In this document: piece by piece, positions 15,766 through 33,163 of the stretch | Numbering within the stretch: position 1 is the first letter of the stretch | Layout: each line of letters begins with the position of its first letter | DNA from: an uncultured Fibrobacter sp. | GTDB taxonomy: Bacteria > Fibrobacterota > Fibrobacteria > Fibrobacterales > Fibrobacteraceae | Assembly (NCBI RefSeq): GCF_947305105.1 | Contig: NZ_CAMZCS010000001.1 | Location: 248,001 to 312,000, forward strand | DNA: 64,000 bases | Direction: 5' to 3' | Made by a program: the position numbers and the translations under genes | The notes under the pieces: generated by a model | The model's input: only the letters and a program-made list of their open reading frames with translations | The model's database searches: none | What the model was told of the DNA's origin: nothing

Positions 15766-15785
15766 CGATGATGTTACTCGAACCG

Positions 15786-18635
15786 ATGACTGCAAAGCTG
15801 GTTTGGTTAAGGTCCGTTGCCTTGTTGTCCGTTTTTGCCGCCCTTGCGCTATTCCTGGCATCTTGTTCGGATTTGTACACCGATTCTGCTAGCTCCCTTT
15901 TGCCTGACGAATTTTCCTCGGTCGGCGTTGGTCGCGATTCTCTTGACGAAGATATGGTCCTCGTTCATGCAAAAGGGGCTCACGTGACGCTCGGCACGGA
16001 AGATTCTGCGGTCAAGGTGAACGAGCGGACGAAAATGAGGGTGGAATTTGACTACGATTTTTCGATAGGCAAGCACGAGGTCACTTGCGGAGAGTTTAAT
16101 AAATTTGCCAAGGCGAAAAAATCTGCGCTCAAGAACCAAGTGCCTTGCAAGTCGAGTAACCTGCCGGCAACAGAGATCACCTATTTTGATGCGGTGCTTT
16201 TTGCAAATGCCAAGAGTGCCGCGATGGGGGTGGATTCCGCTTATTCGTACCTGCATGCCATTTATGACGACGACGGAATTTGTGTTAACTTGGAAGGGCT
16301 TGTATTCAGGTCGGAAGTGAACGGCTATAGGTTGCCTACCGAGGCGGAGTGGGTACTTGTCGCAAGTCAGGGGTGGAATCCGTCGGAATCCTGGAATGCC
16401 TCTAATTCAAAATACCAAATCCATGAGGTCTGCAAAAAAAAGAAAAACGAATTGGGCCTCTGCGATATGGCAGGGAATGTCGTCGAATGGACGAATGATT
16501 GGATGGGAGCGTTCTGGGATACTACGGTAGTCGACTTTATGGGGGCCTCAGACCGGAACGGTGTCGGGGAGCGTGTTCTCAAGGGGGGCTGCTATAAGAA
16601 CTATGCGGAAAATATTAACCTGTATGCTCGTGGGGATGTGTATACGGTGACGTCTTCGACCAAAGCGGAGTATGTCGGGATGCGCCTTGCGCGCGGTCGG
16701 GTGCCTTCGCCGGAGTGGCTAAACGCATCCGGAAGGGTGGAAGCGTCGAAGACATTCCTTGTCGCGAATTTTGCGACGCTGCGGAATGTCGTTAGCATGG
16801 ACAAGATAAAATTGGTATTTCGTGATGATATTACAGGCAACTTGGTCTTTGTCGATTATTCGAGCGGCGCGTTGGCCTTGACCGAAATAAAGGATACCTT
16901 GAATGCGTATCATCCGGATATCTCGCCGGATGGCTCGAAGGTTGCGTTCTGTACGGGTTTGGAAGGTGTCGACGGTTCTTCTGGCATTTATGTCAGGAAC
17001 CTGGACGCAAAGGGCTCGGGTTTGGTAAAGTTGGATGTGAAAAATGCTGCGGTCCCCCGTTGGCAAGTGACTCCGGACGGCGACACGGTAATTGTCTACG
17101 TGACGGATTCCGGTAACAACAAAAACGAGTCGGAATGGCGCTCGAAGAGCACGTGGAAGGTGAAGTTCAAGAAGGGGACCTTTGGAAAACCGGAAAAACT
17201 CTTTGACGGGGCGTATCATGGCGGGATTACCGAGGATGGCCAATTTGCCGTTACGGGCTCCCAACTGCTCAGGGTGAGGGTCGGTGGGCGCGATACGGTG
17301 TGGTACAACGGCGAGCAAGCTTGCAATGTCTCGCTATCGAGGGAACGTATCCGTCGTGTCCTTTTCCTTGATTTCGGATCGAAGACGGGGGAGGCTTTTG
17401 TCGGGGAGAACTATGACACGCATGAACGCTTGCTCGTCATGGATACGGCAGGAACTCTGGTGAATTCGTTTGCCGCTCCCGAAGGCTTTACGTTTGACCA
17501 TAGCGAGTGGGCACAGAACTATGCGAACGACTGGAGACGCGAAATTGCGGTTGCAACGCTTGCCAACAAGAACGGGATGCATTCAAAAATTGTCGTGCTG
17601 AATATGGCCGACAGCAGCTTCACGGAACTTGTTAGCGGCACTGAACTGTGGCACCCGTGCTTGTGGATGAATGCTTCGTATTCCAGAACGAAAAAAACGG
17701 AATTTGATCCTGACAGTGCGGGAATTTACATGAATTCCCTCGATGACCCGAATGCCGTGATTTCTTTGCGGTACAAGATGGAACTGCTTTGGAAGTTCCG
17801 TGACATGGTGCAGGTTGCAATCATGGGGTCGTCGCGTCCCCTGTATTCCGTGTCGCCTTCCTTTTTGAGCAATGGCTATTTTGCCGTGAACCTGGCGCAT
17901 ACTCCAAATTCCATCTACGCGATTAGGGATTACTACATGCGCTATGTCAATCCCCATCTGTACAAATTGAAATTCCTGGTGGTTTCGCTAGATATTGATT
18001 TCTGGAATAAGATGGATAATTCCAAGGCCGACAACTTCTTTGCCAAGGAATACAAGCGTTATCCGGGATATGTGTACGACGAGAACCACAACTATTGGAA
18101 GGATAGCAATCCGCGGGAACTTTATACGTACACCTCGCAAGCCCCGTATGATGACACTCTTGCGCGGCGTATTTACCACACTGACCGGGGGCGTTTCATT
18201 GCGAACGGCTGCGCTTCGGATGGATGGGGTGGGAAAAAACCGGAAGTCGGGCAGGACTCTACATTGTACGACGACGCACCTGAATTGATCGATAACAGCA
18301 TGGCCGCGTTGGATTCGATTATCCGGGTTGCCGCGAATAAGAACGTGACGGTAATCGGAGTTATTTTCCCGCAAAGCCCGGCATACAAGAAAACTGGTGC
18401 GTTTGGCCGTTACGGCATGCGCAGAAGCCTTGCCAAGAAGGTTATTCAAAGGATTGATGACTTGACGCGGGTCTACTCCAACTTTGTATTCTGGGATATA
18501 AACCAGATGGGAGACCATGATTTTGGTGATGATATGGCGACGGACTATGACCATTTGTGCAGTGAAGGGGCAATCCGGCTTTCTATAAAGTTGGATTCCG
18601 TGATTACCGCTATTGAGAAAAAGAATAGTCATTAA
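15786..18635 (+). CDS. Large surface lipoprotein A: FGE-like + TolB-like propeller + SGNH-like domain
   Basis: A 949-residue lipoprotein (signal ending LFLASCS). It matches the description of the Fibrobacter TIGR02171 family (large, often lipoproteins, function unknown). An FGE/sulfatase-modifying-factor-like domain spans about 45-325 (RLPTEAEW, AGNVVEWTNDW, GMRLARG). A propeller covers about 350-630 (HPDISPDGSKVAF). The C-terminal domain has GSSRP (about 681) and DHL (about 921), as in SGNH/DltD-like hydrolases. The FGE catalytic Cys pair is absent (only one Cys, GGCYKN). The start at 15786 gives a clean lipoprotein signal after TATATTTG. It is the first of five paralogues; esterase or acyltransferase activity on surface or plant glycans is inference. 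Confidence 0.82.
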   Translation: MTAKLVWLRSVALLSVFAALALFLASCSDLYTDSASSLLPDEFSSVGVGRDSLDEDMVLVHAKGAHVTLGTEDSAVKVNERTKMRVEFDYDFSIGKHEVTCGEFNKFAKAKKSALKNQVPCKSSNLPATEITYFDAVLFANAKSAAMGVDSAYSYLHAIYDDDGICVNLEGLVFRSEVNGYRLPTEAEWVLVASQGWNPSESWNASNSKYQIHEVCKKKKNELGLCDMAGNVVEWTNDWMGAFWDTTVVDFMGASDRNGVGERVLKGGCYKNYAENINLYARGDVYTVTSSTKAEYVGMRLARGRVPSPEWLNASGRVEASKTFLVANFATLRNVVSMDKIKLVFRDDITGNLVFVDYSSGALALTEIKDTLNAYHPDISPDGSKVAFCTGLEGVDGSSGIYVRNLDAKGSGLVKLDVKNAAVPRWQVTPDGDTVIVYVTDSGNNKNESEWRSKSTWKVKFKKGTFGKPEKLFDGAYHGGITEDGQFAVTGSQLLRVRVGGRDTVWYNGEQACNVSLSRERIRRVLFLDFGSKTGEAFVGENYDTHERLLVMDTAGTLVNSFAAPEGFTFDHSEWAQNYANDWRREIAVATLANKNGMHSKIVVLNMADSSFTELVSGTELWHPCLWMNASYSRTKKTEFDPDSAGIYMNSLDDPNAVISLRYKMELLWKFRDMVQVAIMGSSRPLYSVSPSFLSNGYFAVNLAHTPNSIYAIRDYYMRYVNPHLYKLKFLVVSLDIDFWNKMDNSKADNFFAKEYKRYPGYVYDENHNYWKDSNPRELYTYTSQAPYDDTLARRIYHTDRGRFIANGCASDGWGGKKPEVGQDSTLYDDAPELIDNSMAALDSIIRVAANKNVTVIGVIFPQSPAYKKTGAFGRYGMRRSLAKKVIQRIDDLTRVYSNFVFWDINQMGDHDFGDDMATDYDHLCSEGAIRLSIKLDSVITAIEKKNSH

Positions 18636-18656
18636 GTCATTTTATATATTATAAAT

Positions 18657-20597
18657 GTGAATACAAGATACGCTTTCCCCCTATTATTTTCTGCAGTGGG
18701 AATCGCCGCTGCGTTGACTTTCATTTCTTGCGCATCGAGTGGCTCCGTGCCGCCCGCTGTCGAGGCTGCTCGTTCTGAGTTCGGACCGATCGGTGCTGAT
18801 GTGACTCCGGAGTCGGTTTTCGAGATAAAGGTCGTCGATGCGGATCGCCAGGTGCGCGTCGTGAACAAGCCGACCCTGGCCGCGCTTGACTTTGCGGCGT
18901 ATTCGAGCAATCCCATCCGCTTGGCCGGTAAGGACGAAGTTCCCGAGAACTACAAGGGCTCAATGGAAGGGGCGAACATTGCCGATTATCCGTTCCCAAT
19001 GTTCGATACGATTCTTGCGTATATGCCGCAGGCCGTTGCCGGGGTTACTCCGATTGCTTGGGAACCGTTCTCCAAGATTCTGTACGCCCAGACGGGAACC
19101 GATTCGCTTGCGAGCGTCTTGAACTCCGTGGAAGCGGTCAAGTGGGGCGAGCCCGAAGTGTTCCGCGCTTTCCAAAGCGTCACCCGTTTGTGGGGCGTGA
19201 AGAAGGGCAATGCCGTGGAATGGTGGGCCGAGGTGCGGCCCGCTTCGTGGACCAAGCGCCAGGCTTTTTATGGCAAGCTGAAACTTGTCTCGGGTGGCGA
19301 AACGGCCGAGGTGCTCAACTATTATTTGACTGCCGAGATGAATTCCGAAGATGCCATGAACTGGGCCCGTACGCTTTCGTCTTACTGGTACCCGACTTTG
19401 AATACCGACCTCGAACCGCATGTTCCCGGCGATGTCTGGCTTGACAAGAATAATAGACCTTTTGCTGTGATGCGCGGAAACCCGATGGGCAAGCCGATGT
19501 GGGTTGCTTTTGAGGTGCCTGCGTTTAGGATGACGGACGAGGACATCTATGCACAGCGCAAGGCCGATTCCCTGCTCGCTGCAGGCGAGGTCGTGCCTGT
19601 AGACCGCACGCTGGATACGAACTCTGCTTCGAGGTTGGCAACGCTTGAATCAATGGAAAACAGTTGCCCTGCAAATGCCGAGACCGCCAAGTTCCAGAAG
19701 GCTTTGAAGGCCAAGCTCGACAAGTTGCCCAAGGAACAGAACGCCTGGTCCGACAACGGAATGCTCTGGTTCCGCCGCAACGCAAATTACCTGGTTGCTG
19801 ACAAGATTAGCGCGCAGGATAGCCTGCACAATCCGCTGCCGCGCATGATCGAACTGAAACAGCACCTGGATTCCCTCAACATCCAGTTGCTTGTGGTGCC
19901 GGTCCCCGTGAAAGAAGAAATCTATGCCGACAAGATGATTGCCGGTACACCGGAAGACCTTTGCGTGAGCGTAAGTGGCCGTGAGTTTATGCGTGAGATG
20001 CTTGCCGCCGGCATTGACGTGCTGGATTTGTACCCGGCACTGAAGGCCGCCCGCTCCGGTGATGAACCTCCGCATTACAGTTACCAGCGCTACGACACGC
20101 ACTGGGCGCTGCCCGGAATGCTTGCCGCTATGGAACTGCTTGCTGCCAGGGTGACGCAGTATTCCTGGTATGCGGAATCCGGTGCCCGCCCGGGAAGCCT
20201 TGTCATGAAGGATACGGTCGTGCTGCGCGAAGGTGACCTGGTGGCTCACCTGCCGGATGCCGAGAAGTCGAAGTATCCTGCCGACACGCTTGCCGGCATG
20301 AAGATTTACAAGGGCGACAAGGCCTACAAGGGCGACAAGAATGCCCCGATTCTCTTGATGGGTGACTCGTTCACCGGCGTGTTCGAATCCGTCGACCAGA
20401 AGAGCGGCGGCCCGGGCTCGCTGCTGGCCTACGCTGTCGGCCTCGACGTGCAGGTGGCGACAAGCTGGGGCGGCGGTCCCGGCGTGCGTAGCCGCATGAT
20501 GAAGATGACGAAGGACATGCAGAGCAAGCGCCTGGTCATTTACATGATGACGGCCAGGGACTTCTGGCAGTCTCCCATGGAATGGGACAAGCTGTAA
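18657..20597 (+). CDS. AlgX/AlgJ-like SGNH lipoprotein (putative glycan O-acetylation)
   Basis: A 646-residue lipoprotein (signal ending FISCASSG) starting at GTG 18657. The last 280 residues resemble the AlgJ/AlgX/PatB SGNH fold: VLDLYPAL, then RYDTHWALPGM (the D-x-H motif, about 480) and LLMGDSFTG (GDS serine motif, about 566). AlgJ/AlgX proteins O-acetylate polysaccharides using acetyl groups supplied through an MBOAT protein; no MBOAT gene is in this window. The N-terminal 300 residues are unrecognised. A KAYKGDK/KIYKGDK duplication sits near 550. It lies 21 bp downstream of lipoprotein A, in the same operon-like run. Confidence 0.72.
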   Translation: MNTRYAFPLLFSAVGIAAALTFISCASSGSVPPAVEAARSEFGPIGADVTPESVFEIKVVDADRQVRVVNKPTLAALDFAAYSSNPIRLAGKDEVPENYKGSMEGANIADYPFPMFDTILAYMPQAVAGVTPIAWEPFSKILYAQTGTDSLASVLNSVEAVKWGEPEVFRAFQSVTRLWGVKKGNAVEWWAEVRPASWTKRQAFYGKLKLVSGGETAEVLNYYLTAEMNSEDAMNWARTLSSYWYPTLNTDLEPHVPGDVWLDKNNRPFAVMRGNPMGKPMWVAFEVPAFRMTDEDIYAQRKADSLLAAGEVVPVDRTLDTNSASRLATLESMENSCPANAETAKFQKALKAKLDKLPKEQNAWSDNGMLWFRRNANYLVADKISAQDSLHNPLPRMIELKQHLDSLNIQLLVVPVPVKEEIYADKMIAGTPEDLCVSVSGREFMREMLAAGIDVLDLYPALKAARSGDEPPHYSYQRYDTHWALPGMLAAMELLAARVTQYSWYAESGARPGSLVMKDTVVLREGDLVAHLPDAEKSKYPADTLAGMKIYKGDKAYKGDKNAPILLMGDSFTGVFESVDQKSGGPGSLLAYAVGLDVQVATSWGGGPGVRSRMMKMTKDMQSKRLVIYMMTARDFWQSPMEWDKL

Positions 20598-20614
20598 TCC
20601 GGAGCGCCAGAACG

Positions 20615-21364
20615 ATGTTAAAAAAACTGTTCTGGCCGTGCCTCGTGCTGCTTTTGACCGCGGCGCTCACCGCTGCCTTGTGGAGCGGTCGCACTGCCGA
20701 GCCGACGTATGCCGAGATGGCCTGCCTGTTCGAGGAAAAACCGACGGGGTGTGTCGACTCGATTGCGGATTGGAAATCGGGACTTGCTTTTTATGACAGT
20801 GCTGTGGCTGTGTCCAGGGATCCGCTCAAATCCTTGACGGCACTCCTTTGGGATTATTGGAATATTGAATTTGCCGGGGCGGGGGAGGCCGCCGTTTCGA
20901 AGGATGCGGTGCTCCCGTTGCAAGTTTTAAAGAACCGGAAGTCCGGCTGCATGGGCCTTGCCTGGCTTGCCATGATGGTCGCCGAGGCCAGGAATCTGCC
21001 ATTGAACGTGATTCTATTGCCTGGTCATGTCTTTTTGCGTTACGGGAAATTGAACGGGCTGGAAGAGTTTGGCTTTGCGCGCAAGACGGTAAACCTGGAG
21101 CCGAACCGTCGCGGGTATTCGTACACGGACGAGGAATACCGCGAAAAGTACAAGAACGGCCCGTGGACAGGACTGGAGTTCAAGCCTTTGAAAACACGCG
21201 AATTCGTGGGACTTGCCGCATTTGACTTGGGAAACCTGTATATGGACTCCGAACCCCGCCGGGCGCTGGCCTGGTACCGAATGGCGGAAGAATTTTTCCC
21301 TGCGTATCCGGGCATCTCGGTGAATCAGGAAATTGTCAAGAAGCGATTGCCGAATTCATTGTAG
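20615..21364 (+). CDS. Transglutaminase-like (SirB1/Transglut_core2-type) membrane-anchored protein
   Basis: A 249-residue protein with an N-terminal membrane segment (FWPCLVLLLTAALTAALW) and an outside domain. KSGCMGLAWLAMMVAEARN supplies a candidate catalytic Cys (about 110) and LLPGHVFLRY a His (about 138), as in Transglut_core2/SirB1-type domains. A C-terminal helical repeat (LGNLYMDSEPRRALAWYRMA) is TPR-like. ATG 20615 is preferred over an in-frame ATG at 20582 because it begins the basic/hydrophobic signal; it lies 17 bp after the previous stop. Whether it is an active protease or amidase is unknown. It sits between lipoproteins A and B, so it may act on them or their product. Confidence 0.7.
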   Translation: MLKKLFWPCLVLLLTAALTAALWSGRTAEPTYAEMACLFEEKPTGCVDSIADWKSGLAFYDSAVAVSRDPLKSLTALLWDYWNIEFAGAGEAAVSKDAVLPLQVLKNRKSGCMGLAWLAMMVAEARNLPLNVILLPGHVFLRYGKLNGLEEFGFARKTVNLEPNRRGYSYTDEEYREKYKNGPWTGLEFKPLKTREFVGLAAFDLGNLYMDSEPRRALAWYRMAEEFFPAYPGISVNQEIVKKRLPNSL

Positions 21365-21392
21365 CGAAAAATTTTTTTATTAGATTGAAAAT

Positions 21393-23285
21393 ATGAAATG
21401 GAGTATAGTTTTCACCTTCTTGGGAATTCTTTTTGCCGGATGTGGCTTTTTTGATGATTCTTCATCGGATCCTTCTGAGCCGGTTCCCAGCGCTGGTGAT
21501 GAGTTCCCTGTGGAAATGCTTCAAAATGAGTTCCCTGTGGAAATGCTTCAAATAAAGTCATCCAATCAGCTTGTTTCGTTGGGGACGAACGATTGGATTG
21601 CGAAAGCCATTGAACGCCCGTTGATGCAGGTGCGTTTCGATTATGATTTTTCAATAGGTCGGCACGAAGTGACCTGTGGCGAGTTTAATAAACTGATGAA
21701 TTTGACAACAGGCCTTGCGCTGCAATGTGCAGGTGAAAATCTCCCCGCCACTGATTTGACTTTTTATGACGCGGTCTTGTATGCCAATGCGCTGAGCAAG
21801 GCGAAAAACCTTGATACCGCTTATACCTATGCCTATGCGATATTCGATGCCGATTACCATTGCTTGAGATTGGAAAACTATGCTTTCCATCCCGAAGTAG
21901 AGGGCTTCCGTTTGCCGACAGAATCCGAATGGGTCTATGCGGCTGTGCAGGATTGGAACCCCGATTCAAGCTGGAATTTCAGCAATTCCGGTTCTCAATT
22001 GCACGATGTCTGTACTATCGCCGCTAAAGAGGATCTGCCCTGTGACATGGTCGGGAATGCGATGGAATGGGTGAATGACTGGCTCGGAAAATTCCGGGAT
22101 ACAACCGTGTCGAATTACGTAGGCGGCTTGGATATCGGTTCGCTGGGTGGGCGTATTGTGAAGGGCGACTGCTACTTTACGGATGCGGCCCATATGACCT
22201 ACTATTCGCGTGATGATCTTGGCATGGTGCTCTCTTCGATGAAGGCTAATTTCATTGGTTTTAGACTTGCCTTGGGGAAAATTCCCAATGCATCGTTCAC
22301 AGAGAATGCGGCGAATAGCAATGTGGTTCTTCTGCTCAATTCGTTGGAAGTCCGTTCTTTGGTGGGAGCGTCTCAAGTGAAACTAGCCTTCCGTAACGAC
22401 ATGACTCGGAATATGGTCCTAGTCGATTATTCGGGTGATTCCCCGTTGGTGGCAGAAATCGAGGATGATATCGATGTATTCCATTTGGATATTTCTCCTG
22501 ATGGAAAGAGGGTTGCTTTCAGCACGAATCACGAGGGAATGGTGGGTGCTTCGAGCCTCTATGTGCGCGACTTCAATGCAGAAGGAACGAACTTGGTGAA
22601 GCTGGACGTGGAAACGGCGGCTATCCCGCGCTGGCGCGTCCTTGAAAATGGCGATACGGTTATCGTTTATGTGACAAAAACTTCCCTCAATGATGATGAA
22701 ACGGAATTCAAGTTGGCCTCTACATGGCAAGTGAAATTCGCAGATGGCAAATTTGGAGTTCCCGAAAAAATCCTTGACGGTTTTTATCATGGCGGTGTTA
22801 GTATAGACAACTCGTTTGCCGTGACGGGTTCCCGTCTGCTTCGCGCCCGCATTGGCAATCGTGATGTGATTTGGTATAATGGCGAACAGGTTTGCAACGC
22901 TTCCCTTGCCAAGGATGGGAGCAAGCGCACGCTGTTCTTGGACCTTGTTGGAAAAATGGGACGGGAATTTTCGGGTGAAGCCTATAGAGGGCACGAAAAA
23001 ATCCTGGTGGTCGACAGCACTGGAGCTTTGATTCAGATGGTTTCGGCCCCTGCGTCTTATGCATTTGACCATACCGAGTGGATTGCCGGCTTGAACGACT
23101 TTGTCATTGCGACTGTGGTGAATCCTGATGGCTTCCATGAAAAGATTGTTCTTGTAAACATGACCAATGGCGAAATTACGGATTTAGCCTATGGTGACGA
23201 ACTTTGGCATCCTGCTCTTTGGGTGCAACGGGAACAAGATGGGTTCTCACGACTTGATGGGTTTGAAGGAATCATGAATCCTTAA
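21393..23285 (+). CDS. Surface lipoprotein B: short paralogue lacking the SGNH domain
   Basis: A 630-residue paralogue of A, C, D and E with lipobox FAGCG. It has the FGE-like domain (RLPTESEW, MEWVNDWLG) and the propeller (HLDISPDGKRVAF), but stops right after DELWHPALWVQRE, where the others continue for about 300 residues. Its last residues (GFEGIMNP) and the 3' flanking bases match the very end of paralogue C (SLEGIVRP, then TTAAGTGTG), so an internal deletion that kept the 3' end is the simplest reading. The FGE-like region is also the most diverged (GDCYFTDAAH replaces GGSFR). A 27-bp tandem duplication encodes EFPVEMLQN twice. Confidence 0.8.
   Translation: MKWSIVFTFLGILFAGCGFFDDSSSDPSEPVPSAGDEFPVEMLQNEFPVEMLQIKSSNQLVSLGTNDWIAKAIERPLMQVRFDYDFSIGRHEVTCGEFNKLMNLTTGLALQCAGENLPATDLTFYDAVLYANALSKAKNLDTAYTYAYAIFDADYHCLRLENYAFHPEVEGFRLPTESEWVYAAVQDWNPDSSWNFSNSGSQLHDVCTIAAKEDLPCDMVGNAMEWVNDWLGKFRDTTVSNYVGGLDIGSLGGRIVKGDCYFTDAAHMTYYSRDDLGMVLSSMKANFIGFRLALGKIPNASFTENAANSNVVLLLNSLEVRSLVGASQVKLAFRNDMTRNMVLVDYSGDSPLVAEIEDDIDVFHLDISPDGKRVAFSTNHEGMVGASSLYVRDFNAEGTNLVKLDVETAAIPRWRVLENGDTVIVYVTKTSLNDDETEFKLASTWQVKFADGKFGVPEKILDGFYHGGVSIDNSFAVTGSRLLRARIGNRDVIWYNGEQVCNASLAKDGSKRTLFLDLVGKMGREFSGEAYRGHEKILVVDSTGALIQMVSAPASYAFDHTEWIAGLNDFVIATVVNPDGFHEKIVLVNMTNGEITDLAYGDELWHPALWVQREQDGFSRLDGFEGIMNP
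21501..21553 (+). repeat. 27-bp in-frame tandem duplication in lipoprotein B
   Basis: GAGTTCCCTGTGGAAATGCT... occurs twice end to end (21501-21527, 21528-21553), giving a doubled EFPVEMLQ in the region just after the signal peptide. Confidence 0.9.
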
Positions 23286-23301
23286 GTGTGCTATTATTTT
23301 T

Positions 23302-23309
23302 TATCTTTA
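23302..23309 (+). promoter_or_regulatory. TATCTTTA promoter element, near-leaderless, before lipoprotein C
   Basis: TATCTTTA preceded by a T-run, 4 nt before the ATG at 23314; variant of TAnnTTTG. Confidence 0.4.
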
Positions 23310-23313
23310 GTAT

Positions 23314-26064
23314 ATGAATCGTTGTCTGCTCAAAATGCCCCTGGTGCTTTTTTTGGCCTCGTGCGGTTTTTTTGACGATTCATCGTCGGGCCTTAATCCT
23401 GAAAGCGTTATTTTGGAAGATTCTCTGCCGGGAATGTTTCATGTGGTGGCAAATGGCCAACAAGTCGTTCTAGGGACAGATGTGGCTACCGCGAAAGCGA
23501 ATGAACGTACGGAAATGCATGTTCACTTCGATTACGATTTTTTGATGGGGCGCAGCGAAGTCACGTGTGGTGAGTTCAATGGCCTGATGACGCCAAGGAC
23601 AGGGCTTTTGCTACAATGTGCTAGCGATAATATCCCTGCGACGAACTTGACTTATTTTGATGCGGTTCTGTATGCCAATGAGCGGAGCAAGGTAGGTGGT
23701 TTCGATACCGCTTACACCTATGTCAATGCCGCATTCGATGCCGAAAAGCATTGTACGAATCTCGAGGGCTTCGCCTTCCATCCCGAAGTGGATGGATTTC
23801 GCTTGCCGACCGAGGCGGAATGGATGTTTGTTGTGGGAATGGTCTGGAATCCCAATTCGGGTTGGAATGCCGGCAATTCGGATTATAAGTTGCACGAAGT
23901 GTGTTCAATGGGAACGATTGAATACGGGTTCTGTGACATGGCTGGCAATGCGATGGAGTGGGTGAACGATTGGCTTGGCGGTTTTCGCGATACATCTCTC
24001 ACAAATTATGTAGGACCACCCGATGGTGGCACGCTTGGAGAGCGCATCGTGAAAGGCGGTAGTTTCCGCAGCGAAGTCTCTTCCATGAAACTTTACAGTC
24101 GCGGCGATGTATATACGGTGACGTCTTCGACTTTGGCGGACTATGTCGGATTCAGGCTTGCGTTTGGCAAGATTCCCAATGCAACGTGGATGAGTTCCAG
24201 TGGGAAAGCCTCGTCGAGCCGCATTGTGCTTTTGGCCAATTCATCGACGATTCATTCCCAGACGGGAACGTTCCGCACGAAACTCGCATTCCGCAACGAC
24301 TTGACCGGGAACTTGGCCTTTGTCGATTATTCTGGCGGAATCCTTTCGGCAACCGAAATCACAGATACTATCGATGTGTTCCATCCAGATATTTCTCCCG
24401 ACGGCAAGAGGGTCGCTTTCTGCACAGGTCTCGAAGGCGTATCGGGGAAGTCGGCTCTTTACGTGCGCGACTTGAATGCAGACGGGACAAACCTCGTGAA
24501 GCTCGATGTGGAATCGGCGGCTATCCCGCGCTGGCGTGTACTTGAAAATGGAGATACAGCCATTGTCTACGTGACAGATGCCGGCAATAATGCGGATGAA
24601 TTCGCATTCAAGGGGGCTTCCACTTGGCAGGTCCGGTTTGCTAACGGCGTGTTCGGTATGCCAGAAAAACTGTTTGACGGGGCGTACCACGGCGGTGTCA
24701 GCAACGATAATTTGTTTGCCGTGACTGGAGCGCGTCTCCTCCGAGCCAACGTTCTTGGGCAAGATGTGGTTTGGTACAATGGAGAACAGGCTTGTAACGC
24801 CTCGCTGGCTAAGGATTCCAGCAAACGGACCCTATTCTTGGATTTTGGCGGAACGACGGGAAGGGCTTTTGTGGGCGATGATTATGGAACGCATGCAAGA
24901 CTTTTAGTGGTGGACAGCTCCGGAAACTTGGTCCAGACGGTCGCGGCTCCCAACGGTTACACATTCGATCATACTGAGTGGACGTCCAGTGGCAACTTGG
25001 CTGTGGCCACTTTGACAAACATCAATGGTGCCCATGAGAAGGTTGTCCTCATAAACCTTTCGGATGGTAGTGTTGTCGACCTTGTCGAAGGGGACGAACT
25101 TTGGCATCCCGCTCTTTGGGTGCAACGGGAAAATTTTGTGGCAAATGTCTTGCTCGATCCGGATAGTGCAGGAGTCTATTTGACCGTGACGGACGACCCT
25201 GCTGCGGCAATCTTGCGCTATAAATTGGAACTGCTTTGGACATATAAGGATTGGGCTAATGTCATTGTCCTAGGTTCTTCGCGCCCTCAGGGAGGGATTG
25301 TTTCGAATAACCTGCCCGAACCCTTTAGGACCTTGAATCTTGCGAATGTCCCGAATATGATGACCGTTTCGGATTACCTTGCCCGTAACTATGTTTTCCC
25401 GCATGTTAAAAACTTGAAGTACCTCGTAGTTTCTTTGGATATTGATTTGTGGCATAAAGAAGAACATAGTGAATACAATTTCTTCTATAAGAATTACAAG
25501 AAGTATCCGGGATTCGTGTACGACGAAAATCATGATTTTTGGAAGAATGGCTATCCCGAGGGTTTGGCGGAAATGACGACATATTCAATGGGGATGGAAT
25601 ACTACCAGAATGTCTTCATTCCTTCCCGGGGATACGATTATGCACAACCGGGAACTTGGGAGGAATTTCCTGCTGTTGAAAATGACAGTACATGGATGAG
25701 TTCCTGTTCGGAGAATTTTTACGCGGCTCTATCTCATCTAGAAAATATCTTGAAAATGGCGGAGAATCGCAGTGTTTACGTCATAGGGGTTGTGTTCCCG
25801 CAGAGCCCGAATTACCGGAATACGGGCTCGTTTGGCCGCTATGGAATCCGCAGAAGCGAAGCTCCGAGACTGTTGAAAGAAATCGAGAACCTTAAAACCG
25901 CCTATCCGCATTTTGTTTTTTGGGATGAAAATAAGATGGGCTTCCATGACTATACCGACATCATGGCATCCAATAGGGACCACCTGAGTGCTTATGGCGC
26001 GATACAGTTTACGGAGCGATTGAATATATTGCTAGATAGCCTCGAAGGAATCGTGCGTCCTTAA
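23314..26064 (+). CDS. Large surface lipoprotein C: FGE-like + propeller + SGNH-like domain
   Basis: A 916-residue paralogue of A (lipobox VLFLASCG). The FGE-like domain (about 45-300) has RLPTEAEW, AGNAMEWVNDW and GGSFRSE without the Cys pair. The propeller follows (HPDISPDGKRVAF, DELWHPALW), then the SGNH-like domain with GSSRP (about 653), VVSLDIDLW, VVFPQSPNYRNTGSFGRYG and DHLSAYGA (about 888). Transcription may restart at a TATCTTTA element 4 nt before the ATG. It is 28 bp after B. Probably an outer-surface lipoprotein; enzymatic role inferred only from the SGNH motifs. Confidence 0.82.
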   Translation: MNRCLLKMPLVLFLASCGFFDDSSSGLNPESVILEDSLPGMFHVVANGQQVVLGTDVATAKANERTEMHVHFDYDFLMGRSEVTCGEFNGLMTPRTGLLLQCASDNIPATNLTYFDAVLYANERSKVGGFDTAYTYVNAAFDAEKHCTNLEGFAFHPEVDGFRLPTEAEWMFVVGMVWNPNSGWNAGNSDYKLHEVCSMGTIEYGFCDMAGNAMEWVNDWLGGFRDTSLTNYVGPPDGGTLGERIVKGGSFRSEVSSMKLYSRGDVYTVTSSTLADYVGFRLAFGKIPNATWMSSSGKASSSRIVLLANSSTIHSQTGTFRTKLAFRNDLTGNLAFVDYSGGILSATEITDTIDVFHPDISPDGKRVAFCTGLEGVSGKSALYVRDLNADGTNLVKLDVESAAIPRWRVLENGDTAIVYVTDAGNNADEFAFKGASTWQVRFANGVFGMPEKLFDGAYHGGVSNDNLFAVTGARLLRANVLGQDVVWYNGEQACNASLAKDSSKRTLFLDFGGTTGRAFVGDDYGTHARLLVVDSSGNLVQTVAAPNGYTFDHTEWTSSGNLAVATLTNINGAHEKVVLINLSDGSVVDLVEGDELWHPALWVQRENFVANVLLDPDSAGVYLTVTDDPAAAILRYKLELLWTYKDWANVIVLGSSRPQGGIVSNNLPEPFRTLNLANVPNMMTVSDYLARNYVFPHVKNLKYLVVSLDIDLWHKEEHSEYNFFYKNYKKYPGFVYDENHDFWKNGYPEGLAEMTTYSMGMEYYQNVFIPSRGYDYAQPGTWEEFPAVENDSTWMSSCSENFYAALSHLENILKMAENRSVYVIGVVFPQSPNYRNTGSFGRYGIRRSEAPRLLKEIENLKTAYPHFVFWDENKMGFHDYTDIMASNRDHLSAYGAIQFTERLNILLDSLEGIVRP

Positions 26065-26073
26065 GTGTGTTAT

Positions 26074-26081
26074 TATATTTG
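26074..26081 (+). promoter_or_regulatory. TATATTTG promoter element before lipoprotein D
   Basis: Exact TAnnTTTG match 8 nt before the ATG at 26090, located in the short gap after lipoprotein C. Confidence 0.5.
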
Positions 26082-26089
26082 ATTTTATT

Positions 26090-28813
26090 ATGATGAGAAT
26101 TTTCCGGCAGTTCTTTTTTGTAACCTTCGTTTCTTTGTATTGGGCGTGTACGGATTCTACGGAAAAACTTTCGCAGCCCAATATTCCGAATGTTCCAGAA
26201 GATTATGATTATACGGAAAATGATTTGCAACATCTGGGAATGGTGAAAGTCCATGCTGCGGGACATTCGGTTCTTTTAGGGACGAATGATTCGCTTTCGA
26301 CATCTCGTGAACATCCGCAGATGAAGGTGGAATTCTCCTACGATTATTCCATTAGCGCACACGAGGTGACTCATGCTGAGTATGCCGAAGTGATGGGGGG
26401 GGCTGCCGACGAGATTAACAGGTTCCTGCCTATACGTAACGTGACTTATTACGATGCCATTCTAATGGCTAACAGGAAAAGCATCAAGGACGGGTTCGAT
26501 ACTGTTTATACTTATTCAAAAAAGAATCATAATGCTATCGGAAATTGCATCAACATGGCGGATCTTGTTTTCCACCCGGAGGTCGAAGGCTACCGTTTGC
26601 CGACCGAAGCGGAATGGGTTTATGCCGCCTCACTCGACTTTGTTCCGGAAAATTCTTGGAACGGTGGAAATTCCGGCTACGATTTGCACGATTATTGCTC
26701 CAAAGGAGTTCGCTCTTCGGGCCTTTGCGACATGGAAGGCAATGTCAAGGAATGGGTGAACGATTGGTTGGGATTTTTCCGCGATACGACGGTCGAGAAT
26801 TATGTAGGAGCTCCTGATGGCGGGAGCCTTGGCGAACGCGTCCTCAAGGGCGGTTCCTATAGGGATGACATCGCGAATATCAACCTGTATTCCCGCGGCG
26901 ATATCTATACAGTCACATCTTCGACGCTTGCACCGTATGTCGGTTTCCGTCTGGCTTTTGGCCCCATCCCGGATCCTGTCTGGCTCAGTGAAAATGGTAT
27001 TGCGACAAGTTCTAGAGTGTTCCCCTCGGCAACATCGATGAATGTGCGCACGAAAACGGGAACGTTCCATTCGAAATTGGCCTTCCGTAACGAGACTTCG
27101 GGGAACATCTCCTTTATCGATTATATGAACGGGACGCTTTCTGTCTTGGAAATTCCCGACACGATAGATTCCTACCATCCCGACATTTCTCCCGATGGGA
27201 GCAAGGTGGCATTCTGTACAAAGGCCGAAGGCATTCCCGGAAATTCGGCCCTTTACGTGCGCGACTTGAAGGCTGTGGATTCCAAGGTGGTCCGGCTGGA
27301 TGTGGAAAGCGCCGCTATCCCGCGCTGGAATGTGACGGCTGCCGGCGATACGGTCATAGTCTATGTGACCGATGGTGGAACCAACGACGATATGTCTGTC
27401 TGGAAATCCCAATCGACATGGCTGGTCAAGTTTGCCGGTGGCAAGTTCGGCAAGCCGGAAAAGCTCTTTGACGGAACGTACAATGGTGGAGTCAGTGATG
27501 ACCGCAAACTCGCCGTTTCGGGAGCAAGGCTTTTGCGTGCATGGATGACGGACAAGGATTCCTTGTGGTTCGGCGGCAAGCAGGCCTGTAACGCATCGCT
27601 TTCCAAGGATGGCTCCAAGCGTACCGCATTCCTGGACTTTGGCGAAAAAACAGACGATAATTTTGTGGGCGAAACGTATAGGGCGCATGAACGCCTGCTG
27701 ATTGTCGACAGTACGGGGCAGCTGATCCAGTCCGTCAAGGCCCCCGAGGGCTACACCTTTGACCATGTGGAATGGGTCTCGAAAACGAATTTGGTTGTGG
27801 GTACGCTGGTGACGCCTTCCGGAAACCATTCCAAAATTTCGCTGACAGATTTGAACGATTCCAGTACGATTATCCTTGCCGAAGGTGACGAACTTTGGCA
27901 CCCATGCTTGTGGGTCAATCCCGATTTGTCCGTGAATGGGAACTCCAGTGTGAACATCGATAGTGCCGGAATGTACTACAGCGACCGTTTGCCCTATTAC
28001 TCTGTGGAACTCCGTGTGAAAATGGAAAACTTCTGGACTCGCATGGATTCGGTCACGGCGGTGGCCATGGGCAGTTCCCGCACGTTGTTCGGCCTGTACG
28101 AGAAACAGTTTAAGTCGGTGAACATGTTGAACATGGCGTATTCTTCGGGTGACCTTTACGGTGCAGAATATCTGCTGAAAAATTACATGTTCAACCATCT
28201 GCCTCGTTTCAAGTACCTTGTCCTGGAAATCTCGCCCGACATGTTCTGGCGTAGCGCCGATGAATCGTGGAATCCGATTTTGGAACATGCGGTCGGTTAT
28301 GCTTACGATGCCAACCACAATTTCTGGATGGACAGCATTCCGGACGGGTTCATGGAGGCTGTGAAAGATGCCCCGAAGCCCATTTCGGTATTGATGCACC
28401 CGTACGATTTCGAGAACTTCCTGTTGCCTTCGACTTCTTGGTACACACCGGATGTCGTTGCAGATACGATGGCGATGAAGCTTGACGATGAAATTGTGGG
28501 CGTGAATATGAAGGTGTTCGCATCCATTGTCGACATGTGCAAAAAACATGGCGTGACGGTTGTTGCTCTTGTAATTCCGCGCCATGCGGGGTACAAAGAT
28601 ACAGGTGCGTTCGGCATGTATGGGCCGAGCCGCTCGGTCACGCAGGATTTGTTTGATTCTCTCCAAAAATACGATGTCGTGTGGATGGACGAAAACAAGT
28701 GGGGCAAGCACGATTATCAAGATGAATCGATGGGATATAACATGGATCATTTGAGCTATATCGGCGCATATAAATTGAGCGAAAGAGTTGATGCCAAGTT
28801 GAAAAAGTTATAA
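26090..28813 (+). CDS. Large surface lipoprotein D: FGE-like + propeller + SGNH-like domain
   Basis: A 907-residue paralogue. The signal ends LYWACTDS, lipobox Cys about 20. FGE-like domain about 45-300 (RLPTEAEW, EGNVKEWVNDW, GGSYRDD; no Cys pair). The propeller about 325-620 (HPDISPDGSKVAF, DELWHPCLW) and SGNH-like domain with GSSRT (about 659), VVALVIPRHAGYKDTGAFG and MDHLSYIGA (about 885). It is the most diverged in the SGNH part (FPQSP becomes IPRHA). A TATATTTG element lies 8 nt before the ATG. It ends 9 bp before paralogue E. Confidence 0.82.
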   Translation: MMRIFRQFFFVTFVSLYWACTDSTEKLSQPNIPNVPEDYDYTENDLQHLGMVKVHAAGHSVLLGTNDSLSTSREHPQMKVEFSYDYSISAHEVTHAEYAEVMGGAADEINRFLPIRNVTYYDAILMANRKSIKDGFDTVYTYSKKNHNAIGNCINMADLVFHPEVEGYRLPTEAEWVYAASLDFVPENSWNGGNSGYDLHDYCSKGVRSSGLCDMEGNVKEWVNDWLGFFRDTTVENYVGAPDGGSLGERVLKGGSYRDDIANINLYSRGDIYTVTSSTLAPYVGFRLAFGPIPDPVWLSENGIATSSRVFPSATSMNVRTKTGTFHSKLAFRNETSGNISFIDYMNGTLSVLEIPDTIDSYHPDISPDGSKVAFCTKAEGIPGNSALYVRDLKAVDSKVVRLDVESAAIPRWNVTAAGDTVIVYVTDGGTNDDMSVWKSQSTWLVKFAGGKFGKPEKLFDGTYNGGVSDDRKLAVSGARLLRAWMTDKDSLWFGGKQACNASLSKDGSKRTAFLDFGEKTDDNFVGETYRAHERLLIVDSTGQLIQSVKAPEGYTFDHVEWVSKTNLVVGTLVTPSGNHSKISLTDLNDSSTIILAEGDELWHPCLWVNPDLSVNGNSSVNIDSAGMYYSDRLPYYSVELRVKMENFWTRMDSVTAVAMGSSRTLFGLYEKQFKSVNMLNMAYSSGDLYGAEYLLKNYMFNHLPRFKYLVLEISPDMFWRSADESWNPILEHAVGYAYDANHNFWMDSIPDGFMEAVKDAPKPISVLMHPYDFENFLLPSTSWYTPDVVADTMAMKLDDEIVGVNMKVFASIVDMCKKHGVTVVALVIPRHAGYKDTGAFGMYGPSRSVTQDLFDSLQKYDVVWMDENKWGKHDYQDESMGYNMDHLSYIGAYKLSERVDAKLKKL

Positions 28814-28822
28814 GAGGGAATT

Positions 28823-31615
28823 TTGCGGATCAAGAAGAAAATAGGGATAGGATTTTTTTGTCTGCTTTTGTTGGCGTGTTCGACAAATGACCTTTCTTCT
28901 ATAAATTCGGAAAATCCGCCTATAGGGAATGTGTTCAATTTGGAACAAGATTGGCGTCATGTCGATCTTCCCGATACTGTGGTCGTATTGGGTTCCGACA
29001 TGCGCAATGTCCCTGCTAGTGAACGCCCGCAAATGAGAGTCTCGCTAAAAAATGATTTTTTCTTGATGCGCCATGAGGTGACTTGTGGCGAATTTAATGC
29101 GTTGATGAACCCGTCGCATGGCCTTGTCTTGAAATGTTCCAAAAAAGATGTCCCGGCAACGAATGTTACCTTTTATGACGCAGTGCTTTATGCGAACGAA
29201 TTGAGCAAGAATCAAAATATGGATACGGCTTATTCGTATTCTGTCGCGGTTTATGATAAAGACAAGCATTGCGTGAATTTGGAAGGTTTTGTATTCCATC
29301 CCGAGGTCAATGCGTTTCGGTTGCCTACGGAGGCCGAATGGGTTTATGTCGCATCGAAAAACTGGGATTCGGCAAAAGGTTGGACTGCCGACAATTCAGA
29401 ATATAAACTGCATCCGGTCTGTAGCCTTGCCTCTGAAAATGATTTCTGCGACATGATGGGCAATGCGATGGAATGGGTGAATGATTGGCTCGGAAATTTA
29501 CAGGATACCATTGTCCCTAATTATGTGGGAGCTACTGACGGGGGCGCATTCGATCAGCGTGTTGTCAAGGGCGGGAGTTTCCGCAATGCCGCTGCGACTA
29601 TCACTCTGTTTAGCAGAGGGGATGTGTATAAGGTGACGTCTTCGTCGCTTTCGGATTATCTGGGTTTCCGGTTGGCTTTTGGTTCTATCTCAAATCCGAC
29701 TTGGATGTTTGGAAATGGTAAAATATCCGGTTCTAAAATAGTTCCGGTTGCAAGCTTGAATAAATTGCAGAGCTATATCTCTTCAAAGAACATAAAACTT
29801 GCATTCCGTGACGATTTATCTGGGAATCTAGCCTATATCGACTATATGGGGAGTGGCTTGTCTGTGTTCGAAATAGACGATTCCCTAGACGTTTATCATC
29901 CCGAAATTTCGCCCGATGGGAAAAAGGTGGCTTTCTGTACTGGAATCGAAGGTGTTTCTGGCGAATCTCAATTGTATGTTCGCGACTTGAATGCGGAAGG
30001 GGCAAATCTCGTAAAACTTGATGTGAAGAATGCTGCCATTCCCCGTTGGCGTGTCCTTGACAATGGGGACACAGTTATCGTATATGTGAGCGGTTCGGGG
30101 AATAATAGTGACGATGCGGAATTTAGTAAGTCTTCCACCTGGCAGGTAGCTTTTGCTGGAGGCCAGTTTGGTACGCCCCAAAAACTTTTTGACGGGGCGT
30201 ATCATGGAGGAATTAGCGAAGACAACGGCCTTGCTGTTTCGGGCTCGAAACTTTTGCGCGCTCGAATAGCGGCTTCAGGGGCTACAGTTATGGATAATGC
30301 CCGTGATACAGTATGGTTTGGCGGGAATCAAGCTTGTAATGTGTCTTTGGCGCAAGATTACAGCAAACGTACTCTTTTCTTGGATTTTGCTGGAGAAGCG
30401 GGCAAGGCTTTTGTTGGTGAAAAATACGCAGTGCATGAGCGGTTGTTTGTCGCAGACAGTACGGGCAAGTTAATCCAGTCTGTTGCAGCACCTCCGGGCT
30501 ATGTTTTTGACCATACGGAATGGGTCTTGAAAAACGGGAAATTTGTTGTGGCGACACTTTCGAATGCAAATGGAGCCCATTCAAAAATTGTATTGATGAA
30601 CTTGTCGGACAGCAGCCACATTGAACTGGTTGAAGGCGATGAATTGTGGCATCCGAGTCTTTGGATCGACCTTGACAATTCTTCGTCTAGAGACACGGGT
30701 GACATCTCTGGAGAAACAATTGACCCCTCGCTGGATTTGGATAGTGTAGGCGTATATTTTACCGAAGGAATGGAGTGGACCCATGAAGTTTTAGCCATAA
30801 AGATGAAGATTCTTTTTGACTATATGGACGAAATAGAGTATCTCTGTGTGGGCAGTTCCCGTGTAGAAGATGGTATTTATGCGACGAAAATTACGTCGGG
30901 ATTTGCGGTCAATATGGGGCATCCTGGGAATGATATGGATGCGTCCTTGTATATTGCTGAAAATTACGGATTTAACCACCTGAAAAAATTGAAGGCCGTG
31001 GTTGTGGCTTTGGATTTTGATTTGTGGCAGATGACAACGGAATTCACTGAAAAAATGTTCTGTTGCTTGCCCGGTTTTGTTTATGATGCGAATCATGCGT
31101 TCTGGCCGGATGGATTACCCACTGGATTTCATGTAGCTAGGGACCGGTCGTACAAAGTTTCTCAGGCGGGGCATTTGCTGTATTACGGATCCCGCGGGTA
31201 CCTCATGAACAATCCGGCGGAATGGGGGAGTGTGCTTGTTGAATCGGATTCTACATGGGCCGATCGGAATTATGCAGCAGTACAATGGAATTTGGACAGA
31301 CTTTCTGCGTTCTTGTCACAGGCTATTTCTAAGGGAATTTATGTGGTGGGGGTTGTTTTCCCGCAGAATCCTGCATATAAGAATACAGGCTCGTTCGGCC
31401 GTTATGGGCCTTCTCGGAGTGTTGCAGAACGGATCATGAAAGCCCTTGCCGACATGGAACAGTTGTATCCCAATTTCGTTGTGATGGATGAAAATAAGAT
31501 GGGGAATCATGATTATACCGATTCCATGGCTTTGAATTCTGACCATTTGAGTGCATTGGGTGCTGAATTGGTATCTTCTCGGTTGGACTCTTTACTTGAA
31601 TCGATAATAAAGTAA
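28823..31615 (+). CDS. Large surface lipoprotein E: FGE-like + propeller + SGNH-like domain
   Basis: A 930-residue paralogue starting at a TTG (28823) with a strong GAGGGA ribosome site; lipobox LLLLACS. FGE-like domain with RLPTEAEW, MGNAMEWVNDWLG and GGSFRNA (no Cys pair); propeller (HPEISPDGKKVAF, DELWHPSLW); SGNH-like domain with GSSRV (about 675), VVALDFDLW, VVFPQNPAYKNTGSFG and SDHLSALGA (about 906). The 9-bp gap after D and the ribosome site show co-transcription with D. Base composition of C-E is like the rest of the window, so recent transfer is not evident. Role unknown. Confidence 0.82.
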   Translation: MRIKKKIGIGFFCLLLLACSTNDLSSINSENPPIGNVFNLEQDWRHVDLPDTVVVLGSDMRNVPASERPQMRVSLKNDFFLMRHEVTCGEFNALMNPSHGLVLKCSKKDVPATNVTFYDAVLYANELSKNQNMDTAYSYSVAVYDKDKHCVNLEGFVFHPEVNAFRLPTEAEWVYVASKNWDSAKGWTADNSEYKLHPVCSLASENDFCDMMGNAMEWVNDWLGNLQDTIVPNYVGATDGGAFDQRVVKGGSFRNAAATITLFSRGDVYKVTSSSLSDYLGFRLAFGSISNPTWMFGNGKISGSKIVPVASLNKLQSYISSKNIKLAFRDDLSGNLAYIDYMGSGLSVFEIDDSLDVYHPEISPDGKKVAFCTGIEGVSGESQLYVRDLNAEGANLVKLDVKNAAIPRWRVLDNGDTVIVYVSGSGNNSDDAEFSKSSTWQVAFAGGQFGTPQKLFDGAYHGGISEDNGLAVSGSKLLRARIAASGATVMDNARDTVWFGGNQACNVSLAQDYSKRTLFLDFAGEAGKAFVGEKYAVHERLFVADSTGKLIQSVAAPPGYVFDHTEWVLKNGKFVVATLSNANGAHSKIVLMNLSDSSHIELVEGDELWHPSLWIDLDNSSSRDTGDISGETIDPSLDLDSVGVYFTEGMEWTHEVLAIKMKILFDYMDEIEYLCVGSSRVEDGIYATKITSGFAVNMGHPGNDMDASLYIAENYGFNHLKKLKAVVVALDFDLWQMTTEFTEKMFCCLPGFVYDANHAFWPDGLPTGFHVARDRSYKVSQAGHLLYYGSRGYLMNNPAEWGSVLVESDSTWADRNYAAVQWNLDRLSAFLSQAISKGIYVVGVVFPQNPAYKNTGSFGRYGPSRSVAERIMKALADMEQLYPNFVVMDENKMGNHDYTDSMALNSDHLSALGAELVSSRLDSLLESIIK

Positions 31616-31621
31616 CGCTGA

Positions 31622-33163
31622 TTGAAATGCTCGGTTTTAAATAGGAAAACTGTTTTTGCGGTCGCATTTGTTGCGGCTCTGTTTTCCATATTCCCGCTGA
31701 CCGATACGGATATCTGGTGGCATTTGGCTTGCGCTCGCGAGTGGGTGCAGACTTGGACTCCGTCCCGTTCGCCGGTGGTGAATGTCCACGAATACTTCCA
31801 GAGGGTGGTGGGCTTTGTCTACGGCATTGGTGGTGCCCCGCTCCTCGTTGCGTTCAAGGCGGTTTTGTGGGGCATCGTTTTTGCGCTTTTCCTGTTGCCG
31901 CATAGGGAACGTTGTGCAGAAAGCCAAAGTAAGCCCGCTGCGCTTGTTGGCGCTACGCTTGCTGCACTAGTCCTTTTCGTTTTCCGCTACCACTTCGAAA
32001 TCCGCCCCGTGCTCTTTTCGCTATTGTTCCTCGGAATCTACTGGAACCTCCTTCCCGAAATTTTAAATTCATCGTCCCATTCTTCTCAAACTTCGCGCCT
32101 CGAGCCTCGAACCTATTTCCTTCTCCTTTTCGTCCTAGTCATTCAATGGTTCTGGTGCAAATGCCAAGGGCTCTACATCTTGGGCCCGCTTTTTGCGCTG
32201 GCGGTACTGGTTTCTGCATGGCTCGGTGCTTGGCGGTTGAAAATAAAGTTGCCGAAAAAGGTCCGGCTATTCCATGTGGGCGTTGTGCTTGCCCTGTTTG
32301 CAATGCCGTTTTTGCACAGCGAAGGGCTGAACTTGTTCCTCTATCCGTTTGGCCTCTTGGACCGCCTTGTCGGAATGAGCCCGTCGGCTAGCGTATTTGC
32401 AAGCGAAATCGCCGAGAACCGTTCTCCGTTCACGTTGTTGTTGGCGGGGGAGAATGCTTTGGAATGTGTGGTGATGATTGCCCTGTGTGTCGCCGGGCTT
32501 GTATTTGCCGTTTGGAATATGCTCAATGGCCGGCTCGGCTTGATGCCAATCTGCCTTTTTGCGACCGCAGCCCTTGCGCTCATCGCCGAACGCAACTTCG
32601 TGCTGTATATGCCAGTGTTGCTGTATGGCACGGTCGCGTTCTCCACTAACCACCAACCACCAACCACTAACCACTTCCTACTGTCTACTTCCTACTTCCT
32701 ACTGTCTACTGTCTACTTCCTACTCTTCTTCCTTCTCGGCCTCTGGGCGCGTTCTCTCCTCGCTTACGATATTTCCATGATTGCTTCCCAACGTGTCCCG
32801 GTAGATGCCGCCGCCTGGATGGCCGCTCACCCGCACGAAGGCCATCTGTTCAACGACGACCGTGCCGGTGGCTATCTCGAATTTGTGAATCCTTCGGACC
32901 CTGTCTACATCGACGGACGCTTTATCCTCAAGACGGCGGATTTCTTTGAACGCTACCTGCGTTATGCCGACGATCCGGCCCTGTTCATGCACGATGCCGA
33001 TTCGTTGCATTTTGGCCGCGCCATTTTCCCGCTCCGCTATTATGCCCGTTGGGGGAGCCTCCTCTCGGTGCTCGAAGCGCAGGAAGACTGGAATGTTGCG
33101 TACCGTGATTCTCTCTACATTGTTCTAAATCACGATATTTGGAATTTTGTCAGTGAAAGGTAA
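31622..33163 (+). CDS. Polytopic membrane protein, GT-C glycosyltransferase-like
   Basis: A 513-residue inner-membrane protein with about 10 hydrophobic segments and a C-terminal outside domain. The N-terminus PLTDTDIWWHLACAREW and the C-terminal LFNDDRAGGYLEF...YIDGRF resemble a family of GT-C-like membrane proteins (DxDxWWH near the first loop). Sugar transfer to surface molecules is inference. The likely start is TTG 31622, 6 bp after E, so it closes the lipoprotein cluster. Two 7-bp-period repeat arrays are inside the frame: one encodes SRLEPRTYF, the other a 28-residue TNHQPPTTNHF...YFLLSTVYF stretch that would lengthen a loop and a membrane helix. Confidence 0.7.
   Translation: MKCSVLNRKTVFAVAFVAALFSIFPLTDTDIWWHLACAREWVQTWTPSRSPVVNVHEYFQRVVGFVYGIGGAPLLVAFKAVLWGIVFALFLLPHRERCAESQSKPAALVGATLAALVLFVFRYHFEIRPVLFSLLFLGIYWNLLPEILNSSSHSSQTSRLEPRTYFLLLFVLVIQWFWCKCQGLYILGPLFALAVLVSAWLGAWRLKIKLPKKVRLFHVGVVLALFAMPFLHSEGLNLFLYPFGLLDRLVGMSPSASVFASEIAENRSPFTLLLAGENALECVVMIALCVAGLVFAVWNMLNGRLGLMPICLFATAALALIAERNFVLYMPVLLYGTVAFSTNHQPPTTNHFLLSTSYFLLSTVYFLLFFLLGLWARSLLAYDISMIASQRVPVDAAAWMAAHPHEGHLFNDDRAGGYLEFVNPSDPVYIDGRFILKTADFFERYLRYADDPALFMHDADSLHFGRAIFPLRYYARWGSLLSVLEAQEDWNVAYRDSLYIVLNHDIWNFVSER
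32091..32118. repeat. 7-bp-period repeat in the GT-C-like gene (word CCTCGAG)
   Basis: CTTCGCG, CCTCGAG, CCTCGAA, CCTATTT in strict 7-bp register within the reading frame. Confidence 0.6.
32643..32726. repeat. 12-unit 7-bp-period array inside the GT-C-like gene
   Basis: Twelve consecutive heptamers: CCACTAA/CCACCAA type (4), CCACTTC, then CTACTGT/CTACTTC types (7). Total 84 bp, divisible by 3, so the frame is kept. Two word types occur side by side, the AGTGGTT word and the AGTAGAC/AGTAGGA word seen at other loci (as reverse complements). Confidence 0.92.

Follow-up and report, generated by a model that had tools for sequence, protein, structure and literature searches.

What do the large lipoproteins of family TIGR02171 do, and why do five of them stand together in one run of genes in an uncultured Fibrobacter? 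TIGR02171 is an NCBIfam subfamily of unknown function whose entry gives no domain reading, and our literature search found no paper on TIGR02171 or on a Fibrobacter MBOAT system. We examined the run in a 64,000-nucleotide stretch (the window; genome G000, contig C1, positions 248001 to 312000), which belongs to an assembly of 3.57 Mb in 72 contigs; the name of the TIGR02171 family and every close relative indicate Fibrobacter. A sequence-only reading of the window had proposed an outer-surface machine that modifies or binds glycans. We lean toward reading the cluster as the version that Fibrobacter has of an MBOAT-SGNH system for envelope O-acylation, in which the TIGR02171 proteins would serve as lipid-anchored SGNH proteins that handle acyl groups.

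The Gene Cluster

Eight large co-directional genes occupy positions 15747 to 33163, and because neighboring genes overlap by up to 16 bp or lie no more than 28 bp apart, the cluster is likely to be one operon. The features, with neighbors, are as follows.

13955-14809, + strand: TIGR02147 protein, upstream of A, as it also is in locus L120
14806-15693, + strand: FISUMP-like lipoprotein, upstream (36.3 bits, below the curated cut-off of 41.65)
15747-18635, + strand, likely start ATG at 15786: A, TIGR02171 lipoprotein with FGE-like domain, TolB-like propeller and SGNH domain
17700-18632, + strand: SGNH domain of A
18657-20597, + strand: AlgX1, AlgX/AlgJ-like SGNH protein, circularly permuted (DTH, then GDS; PF16822, E=7e-20)
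20582-21364, + strand: TG, Transglut_core2-like, membrane-anchored (PF13369, E=3e-9)
21393-23285, + strand: B, TIGR02171 paralogue with FGE-like domain and propeller only, no SGNH domain
23314-26064, + strand: C, full TIGR02171 lipoprotein (1263 bits)
25150-26061, + strand: SGNH domain of C, modeled (domain residues Ser44, Asn275, Asp277, His278)
26090-28813, + strand: D, full TIGR02171 lipoprotein (1129 bits)
28823-31615, + strand: E, full TIGR02171 lipoprotein (1213 bits)
31622-33163, + strand: GT-C-like polytopic membrane protein with invariant DTDxWWH, ERN, NDD and DGR motifs
34852-36108, + strand: PD40 propeller protein (Pfam), conserved as a neighbor of AlgX1 in other families at 53-68% identity

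The sequence-only reading correctly placed five TIGR02171-like lipoproteins on one strand with short gaps: all five pass the curated TIGR02171 cut-off of 544.35 bits, with profile scores of 837 to 1263. They do not, as that reading had it, alternate with the other genes; the order is A-AlgX-TG-B-C-D-E-GT. Nor is the arrangement one of chance, since many Fibrobacter genomes show the same succession of genes and further TIGR02171 copies are present in the same genome. A scan of the whole window against Rfam gave no match. Several loci have a TIGR02147 gene, perhaps encoding a regulator, close to TIGR02171 (window 13955-15693, L026 16903-17742, L116, L120, L184 and L186).

The three other gene types named in the sequence-only reading (AlgX-like, transglutaminase-like and GT-C-like) are all present. 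AlgX1 scores 72.2 bits against a PF16822 cut-off of 26.5, and among orthologues covering each site the DTH motif is kept in 37 of 37 and the serine of the later GDS in 36 of 36, in permuted H-S order; a search of AlgX1 against PDB sequences returned nothing useful. TG scores 36.9 bits against a Transglut_core2 cut-off of 23.5, and its orthologues retain Cys123 and His149 (29/29 covering the site). The gene at 31622-33163 matches nothing in Pfam, and its GT-C assignment comes from a moderately confident predicted model (pLDDT 69.6) whose best four PDB matches in Foldseek were AglB three times and AftA, at probabilities of 0.97-1.00 but E values of 0.02-0.09.

The TIGR02171 Proteins

Pfam recognizes an FGE-sulfatase domain in all five lipoproteins (E from 5e-21 to 7e-28) and, weakly, PD40 propeller repeats in each. 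The N-terminal domain shares the FGE/TvpA/PorK-GldK fold, with TvpA as its best solved relative (E=5e-24), but differs from FGE in having no catalytic cysteines: the two that should follow the GGS motif are missing from the consensus KGGSFR..A..M.LYSRGDVY. FGE catalysis by this domain is thereby ruled out, and with the cysteines gone it is probably a binding domain. TvpA is a retroelement variable protein; in the cluster lipoproteins the FGE domain is N-terminal.

The proposed three-part architecture holds for A, C, D and E but not for B, which covers only positions 33-612 of the TIGR02171 model and ends after the propeller. Since its last seven codons resemble the end of C, B seems to be the product of an internal deletion that removed the third domain. 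Relatives of B that likewise have no SGNH domain occur in L067 and L120, and the three proteins carry three different C-terminal tails (window 21393-23285; L067 2197-4143; L120 9692-11539). In L067 the tail looks like the terminus of TG, which would fit an origin by recombination within the array. Compared with the L067 relative, the open frame of B shows dN of 0.12 and dS of 0.49, values consistent with retention of the shorter protein, though part of the constraint may predate the deletion.

The genome carries at least ten full or near-full TIGR02171 copies, at least six of them in addition to those of the cluster. One of the latter is split by an in-frame TAG and looks like a pseudogene (L027:7724-10354, or G000:C6:39741-42341). 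Elsewhere, open frames of 1841-1844 aa (G098:C2:110042-115534, G119:C59 and G096:C14) appear to be two TIGR02171 genes fused without a stop, and a contig labeled Bacteroidales (L111) carries a TIGR02171 gene and a GT gene and is probably misbinned Fibrobacter DNA.

The C-Terminal SGNH Domain

We modeled the C-terminal domain with AlphaFold2 from an alignment of 61 Fibrobacter domains. The SGNH domain of C was predicted with a pLDDT of 96.2 and a pTM of 0.94, and Foldseek matched it at a probability of 1.00 to GDSL esterases and to the peptidoglycan O-acetyltransferase PatB, with TM scores by target mostly between 0.5 and 0.67; the C-terminal profile itself found no PDB sequence at E<=1. Residues were counted in 201 non-redundant domains, 10 from this genome, 161 from close relatives and 30 from more distant sources, other genera at the nearest and other classes at the farthest. 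All 201 have Gly42, Ser44 and His278, which correspond to the GxS nucleophile of block I and the histidine of block V, whereas position 43 may be S, T, D, N, C, Q or G, as GxS predicts. Asn63, present in 199 of the 201, is a candidate oxyanion-hole residue (block III). Loci had been collected by the pattern D-x-N-x-x-G-x-H, which spans domain residues 258-266; as neither Ser44 nor His278 falls within it, their invariance is no effect of selection. We are therefore all but certain that the C-terminal domain has an SGNH fold, as the sequence-only reading had surmised, though for four of the five lipoproteins rather than for all; the inference thus withstood the refutation test set for it in that reading.

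That reading had also taken the D-H of a DHL motif for the catalytic pair, and here it was mistaken: the aspartate in question varies (D, N, Q or Y even within this genome), and what is conserved is GxS, the histidine, and D or N three residues before it. At this -3 position aspartate stands in 111 domains, asparagine in 85 and another residue in 5, and an acid is found at -3 or -1 in 196 of 201 and at neither in 5. The distant members mostly keep the usual aspartate at -3 (25/30); in the 61-domain set, asparagine at -3 is always accompanied by aspartate at -1. Residues 275 (Asn) and 277 (Asp) of the C domain show this combination, which gives the impression of a catalytic acid that has shifted its position. 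The DltD-like flavor that had been noted is found in some members, in that 6 of the 61 domains match Pfam DltD (PF04914) at E<=0.1, the best at 2.5e-6; the domain of C and the full-length A-E proteins do not match it.

These data bear on whether the TIGR02171 proteins are instead substrate-binding or scaffold lipoproteins, their FGE and propeller parts binding glycan or protein and their SGNH catalysis secondary or lost. The missing FGE cysteines, the existence of B and its relatives, and the asparagine found at the usual acid site in about 42% of the C-terminal domains are what such proteins would be expected to show. The strict retention of Gly, Ser and His is too much to ask of a dead domain, however, and for C the dN/dS of its SGNH domain (about 0.08, with dS near saturation) is as low as in the rest of the protein (about 0.10). 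We regard this binder or scaffold reading as quite unlikely.

The MBOAT Gene and Its Operon in Other Families

No MBOAT gene lies in or near the window. The sequence-only reading had suggested looking for one elsewhere in the genome, and it has in fact two MBOAT loci, one on contig C24 and one on C18; of its two AlgX genes, neither adjoins an MBOAT gene. An MBOAT at each TIGR02171 locus is consequently ruled out, and only the C24 gene is orthologous to the operon MBOATs that adjoin AlgX genes in other families. Such an operon, MBOAT-AlgX2-AlgX1, occurs in families f1 (g3 and g8), f7, f9, f11 and f12; the AlgX1 orthologue directly follows MBOAT and AlgX2 in L221, L222, L223, L225, L226, L227, L228 and L229, with TG and GT-C genes downstream in L226/L175, L228 and L229 and a PD40 gene downstream in L175, L221, L223 and L228. 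Compared with the C24 MBOAT, the operon MBOATs of full length show 49-58% identity; with the C18 MBOAT the matches are shorter, mostly at 27-38% identity. Given the orthology of the C24 gene, the operon has most likely been split over three loci in the genus of the window, where AlgX2, like the MBOAT, lies away from the cluster. The C24 MBOAT ends in FLYFQF, and an FxYxxF tail is present in 11 of 11; this is the acyl-shuttle motif of PatA and DltX (PMC12148441).

The two MBOAT genes of this genome have neighbors other than those of the operon. Two genes without a Pfam match flank the C24 MBOAT (L030 5937-7433 and 9456-10706) and are possible further parts of the system; beside the C18 MBOAT stand two GDSL genes and a series of genes for small lipoproteins that are paralogues of one another (L031 2922-12975).

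Another tie between MBOAT and the TIGR02171 domain is found in genome G154, where an MBOAT gene is directly followed by that of a stand-alone SGNH protein (L188:13984-14970) that the C-terminal profile detects at E=6e-10, the sole clear match outside TIGR02171 among the loci searched. Some 1.6 kb separate this MBOAT from a TIGR02171 gene, with a methyltransferase-like gene between, and the stretch read at this locus holds no second SGNH gene by the MBOAT.

Fibrobacter and neighboring genera repeatedly show the order AlgX1-TG-(TIGR02171)n-GT-C; a single copy (n=1) is found in L105, L110, L121, L130 and L233, and larger arrays elsewhere; in G144 (L230) two TIGR02171 copies lie between GT-C and PD40. 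Outside the Fibrobacteraceae, the TIGR02171 genes we examined do not adjoin AlgX1.

Co-inheritance

The C24 MBOAT is missing from 15 of 80 genomes of the genus, and AlgX1 is missing from all 15 of these and TIGR02171 from 13; the two exceptions are partial TIGR02171 genes, in G066 on two contigs (model positions 5-696) and in G132 at a contig edge. Where the C24 MBOAT is present (65 genomes), TIGR02171 is found in 65 and AlgX1 in 61, the other four being only 70-77% complete. Among 65 genomes across the phylum, TIGR02171 and AlgX1 are both present in 31 and both absent in 30, with TIGR02171 alone in 3 and AlgX1 alone in 1. TIGR02171 without AlgX1 was seen in G150 and G148 and as the fragments in G066 and G132, and AlgX1 alone in G166. 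On a gyrA tree, a quick single-gene tree that includes many incomplete MAGs, 12 independent pairs could be compared; AlgX1 changes in parallel with TIGR02171 in about 9 and in the opposite direction in none (p=0.004 by sign test). A single locus transferred as a whole does not account for this pattern, since in distant families the two genes are unlinked. We consider it probable that TIGR02171 is linked to the MBOAT-AlgX system.

Co-inheritance and a shared locus are also predicted if TIGR02171 is a de-acylase or editing arm that removes acyl groups added by MBOAT and AlgX, and sequence does not separate a transferase from an esterase. The G154 arrangement, in which the nearest stand-alone relative directly follows an MBOAT and is the only SGNH gene in the stretch read, suits a transferase partner instead, and an editing role seems to us very unlikely.

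Plant Fiber and Carbohydrate-Active Enzymes

At distances of up to about 12 kb, the cluster is accompanied by two GH5 genes, one GH8 gene and two GH11 genes; tandem pairs at 4750-9324 and 40726-43122 of the window comprise GH5 genes with collagen-like repeats and GH11 genes. With such neighbors, a modeled fold that also matches GDSL acetylesterases, and SGNH esterases being common among CAZymes (PMC9487903), the TIGR02171 proteins might be cell-anchored esterases that deacetylate plant polysaccharides such as xylan. A secreted esterase, however, would need neither AlgX1 nor, within the genus, the MBOAT with which TIGR02171 is co-inherited, the closest stand-alone relative is paired with an MBOAT, and genomes without the module retain 4-8 genes for GH9 cellulases. 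We think an esterase acting on plant polysaccharides unlikely. The GH9 genes retained in these genomes indicate that the module is not tied to cellulose use, and the module is also found in distant families other than that of Fibrobacter; on these observations the earlier suggestion of attachment to plant fiber is not supported, and placement at the outer surface stays a suggestion. Published work on F. succinogenes S85 reports that on cellulose its surface polysaccharide falls and most lipoproteins drop (PMC4619616, PMC6851124), changes that are compatible with acylation but not specific to it, since the cluster proteins could not be mapped in those data.

Discussion

We are led to the MBOAT-SGNH acylation reading by the domain content of the cluster, the SGNH fold and its residues, the operon of other families, the joint inheritance of the genes, and the relatedness of the SGNH domain to a protein paired with an MBOAT. 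The glycan-modifying machine first proposed thus gains support as a glycan- or polymer-modifying one of the MBOAT-SGNH kind, with its MBOAT elsewhere in the genome. We picture the following sequence: (i) the tyrosine in the C-terminal FLYFQF tail of the C24 MBOAT would be loaded with an acyl group, probably acetyl and drawn from acetyl-CoA; (ii) the MBOAT would pass this group to periplasmic SGNH proteins, namely AlgX2, AlgX1 and/or the lipid-anchored TIGR02171 proteins; and (iii) the catalytic serine of each would transfer it to an envelope polymer, whether a glycan or one of another kind. Binding and choosing the substrate would fall to the FGE-like and propeller domains, the tandem TIGR02171 copies would diversify it, and the GT-C protein may add sugars to the same polymer. 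Acyl transfer, its donor, the polymer, and a transferase rather than an esterase are the parts of this mechanism that we infer; we place moderate confidence in a transferase function.

The nearest described systems are those that O-acetylate alginate (AlgI-AlgJ-AlgX) and cellulose (WssH-WssI), which share with the Fibrobacterota operon an MBOAT and AlgX-type permuted SGNH proteins. The Fibrobacterota system differs in adding TG, GT-C and a PD40 protein, in being split over three loci in the genus of the window, and in being joined by large FGE-propeller-SGNH lipoproteins, which, as far as the literature searched shows, occur in no described system. With PatA-PatB and DltB-DltX-DltD (PMC12148441) it has in common the SGNH core with GxS and a block V histidine and the FxYxxF tail of the MBOAT; PatB is among the fold matches, and matches to the DltD profile are weak. 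Here, by contrast, the SGNH domain is the third domain of a lipoprotein of about 920 aa, with many paralogues per MBOAT. A-E are all members of TIGR02171; the SGNH domain and the MBOAT link are new to that family.

A bolder version, which we offer tentatively and think rather doubtful, is that one MBOAT feeds a large and growing number of SGNH acyltransferases anchored by lipid, all equipped with FGE-like and propeller parts of their own for recognition, so as to place variable acyl marks on envelope glycans or even proteins in a manner specific to the Fibrobacterota.

In a larger context, a large paralogous family without a described function gains a testable job, through an SGNH group allied to MBOAT partners and through co-inheritance with a dispersed MBOAT-AlgX operon, and the data suggest a one-MBOAT, many-SGNH arrangement. 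According to the title of Vinogradov et al. 2001 (cited in PMC9311074), the best-known species of the Fibrobacterota reportedly does without lipopolysaccharide, and our findings suggest that this phylum may possess an envelope-acylation machine.
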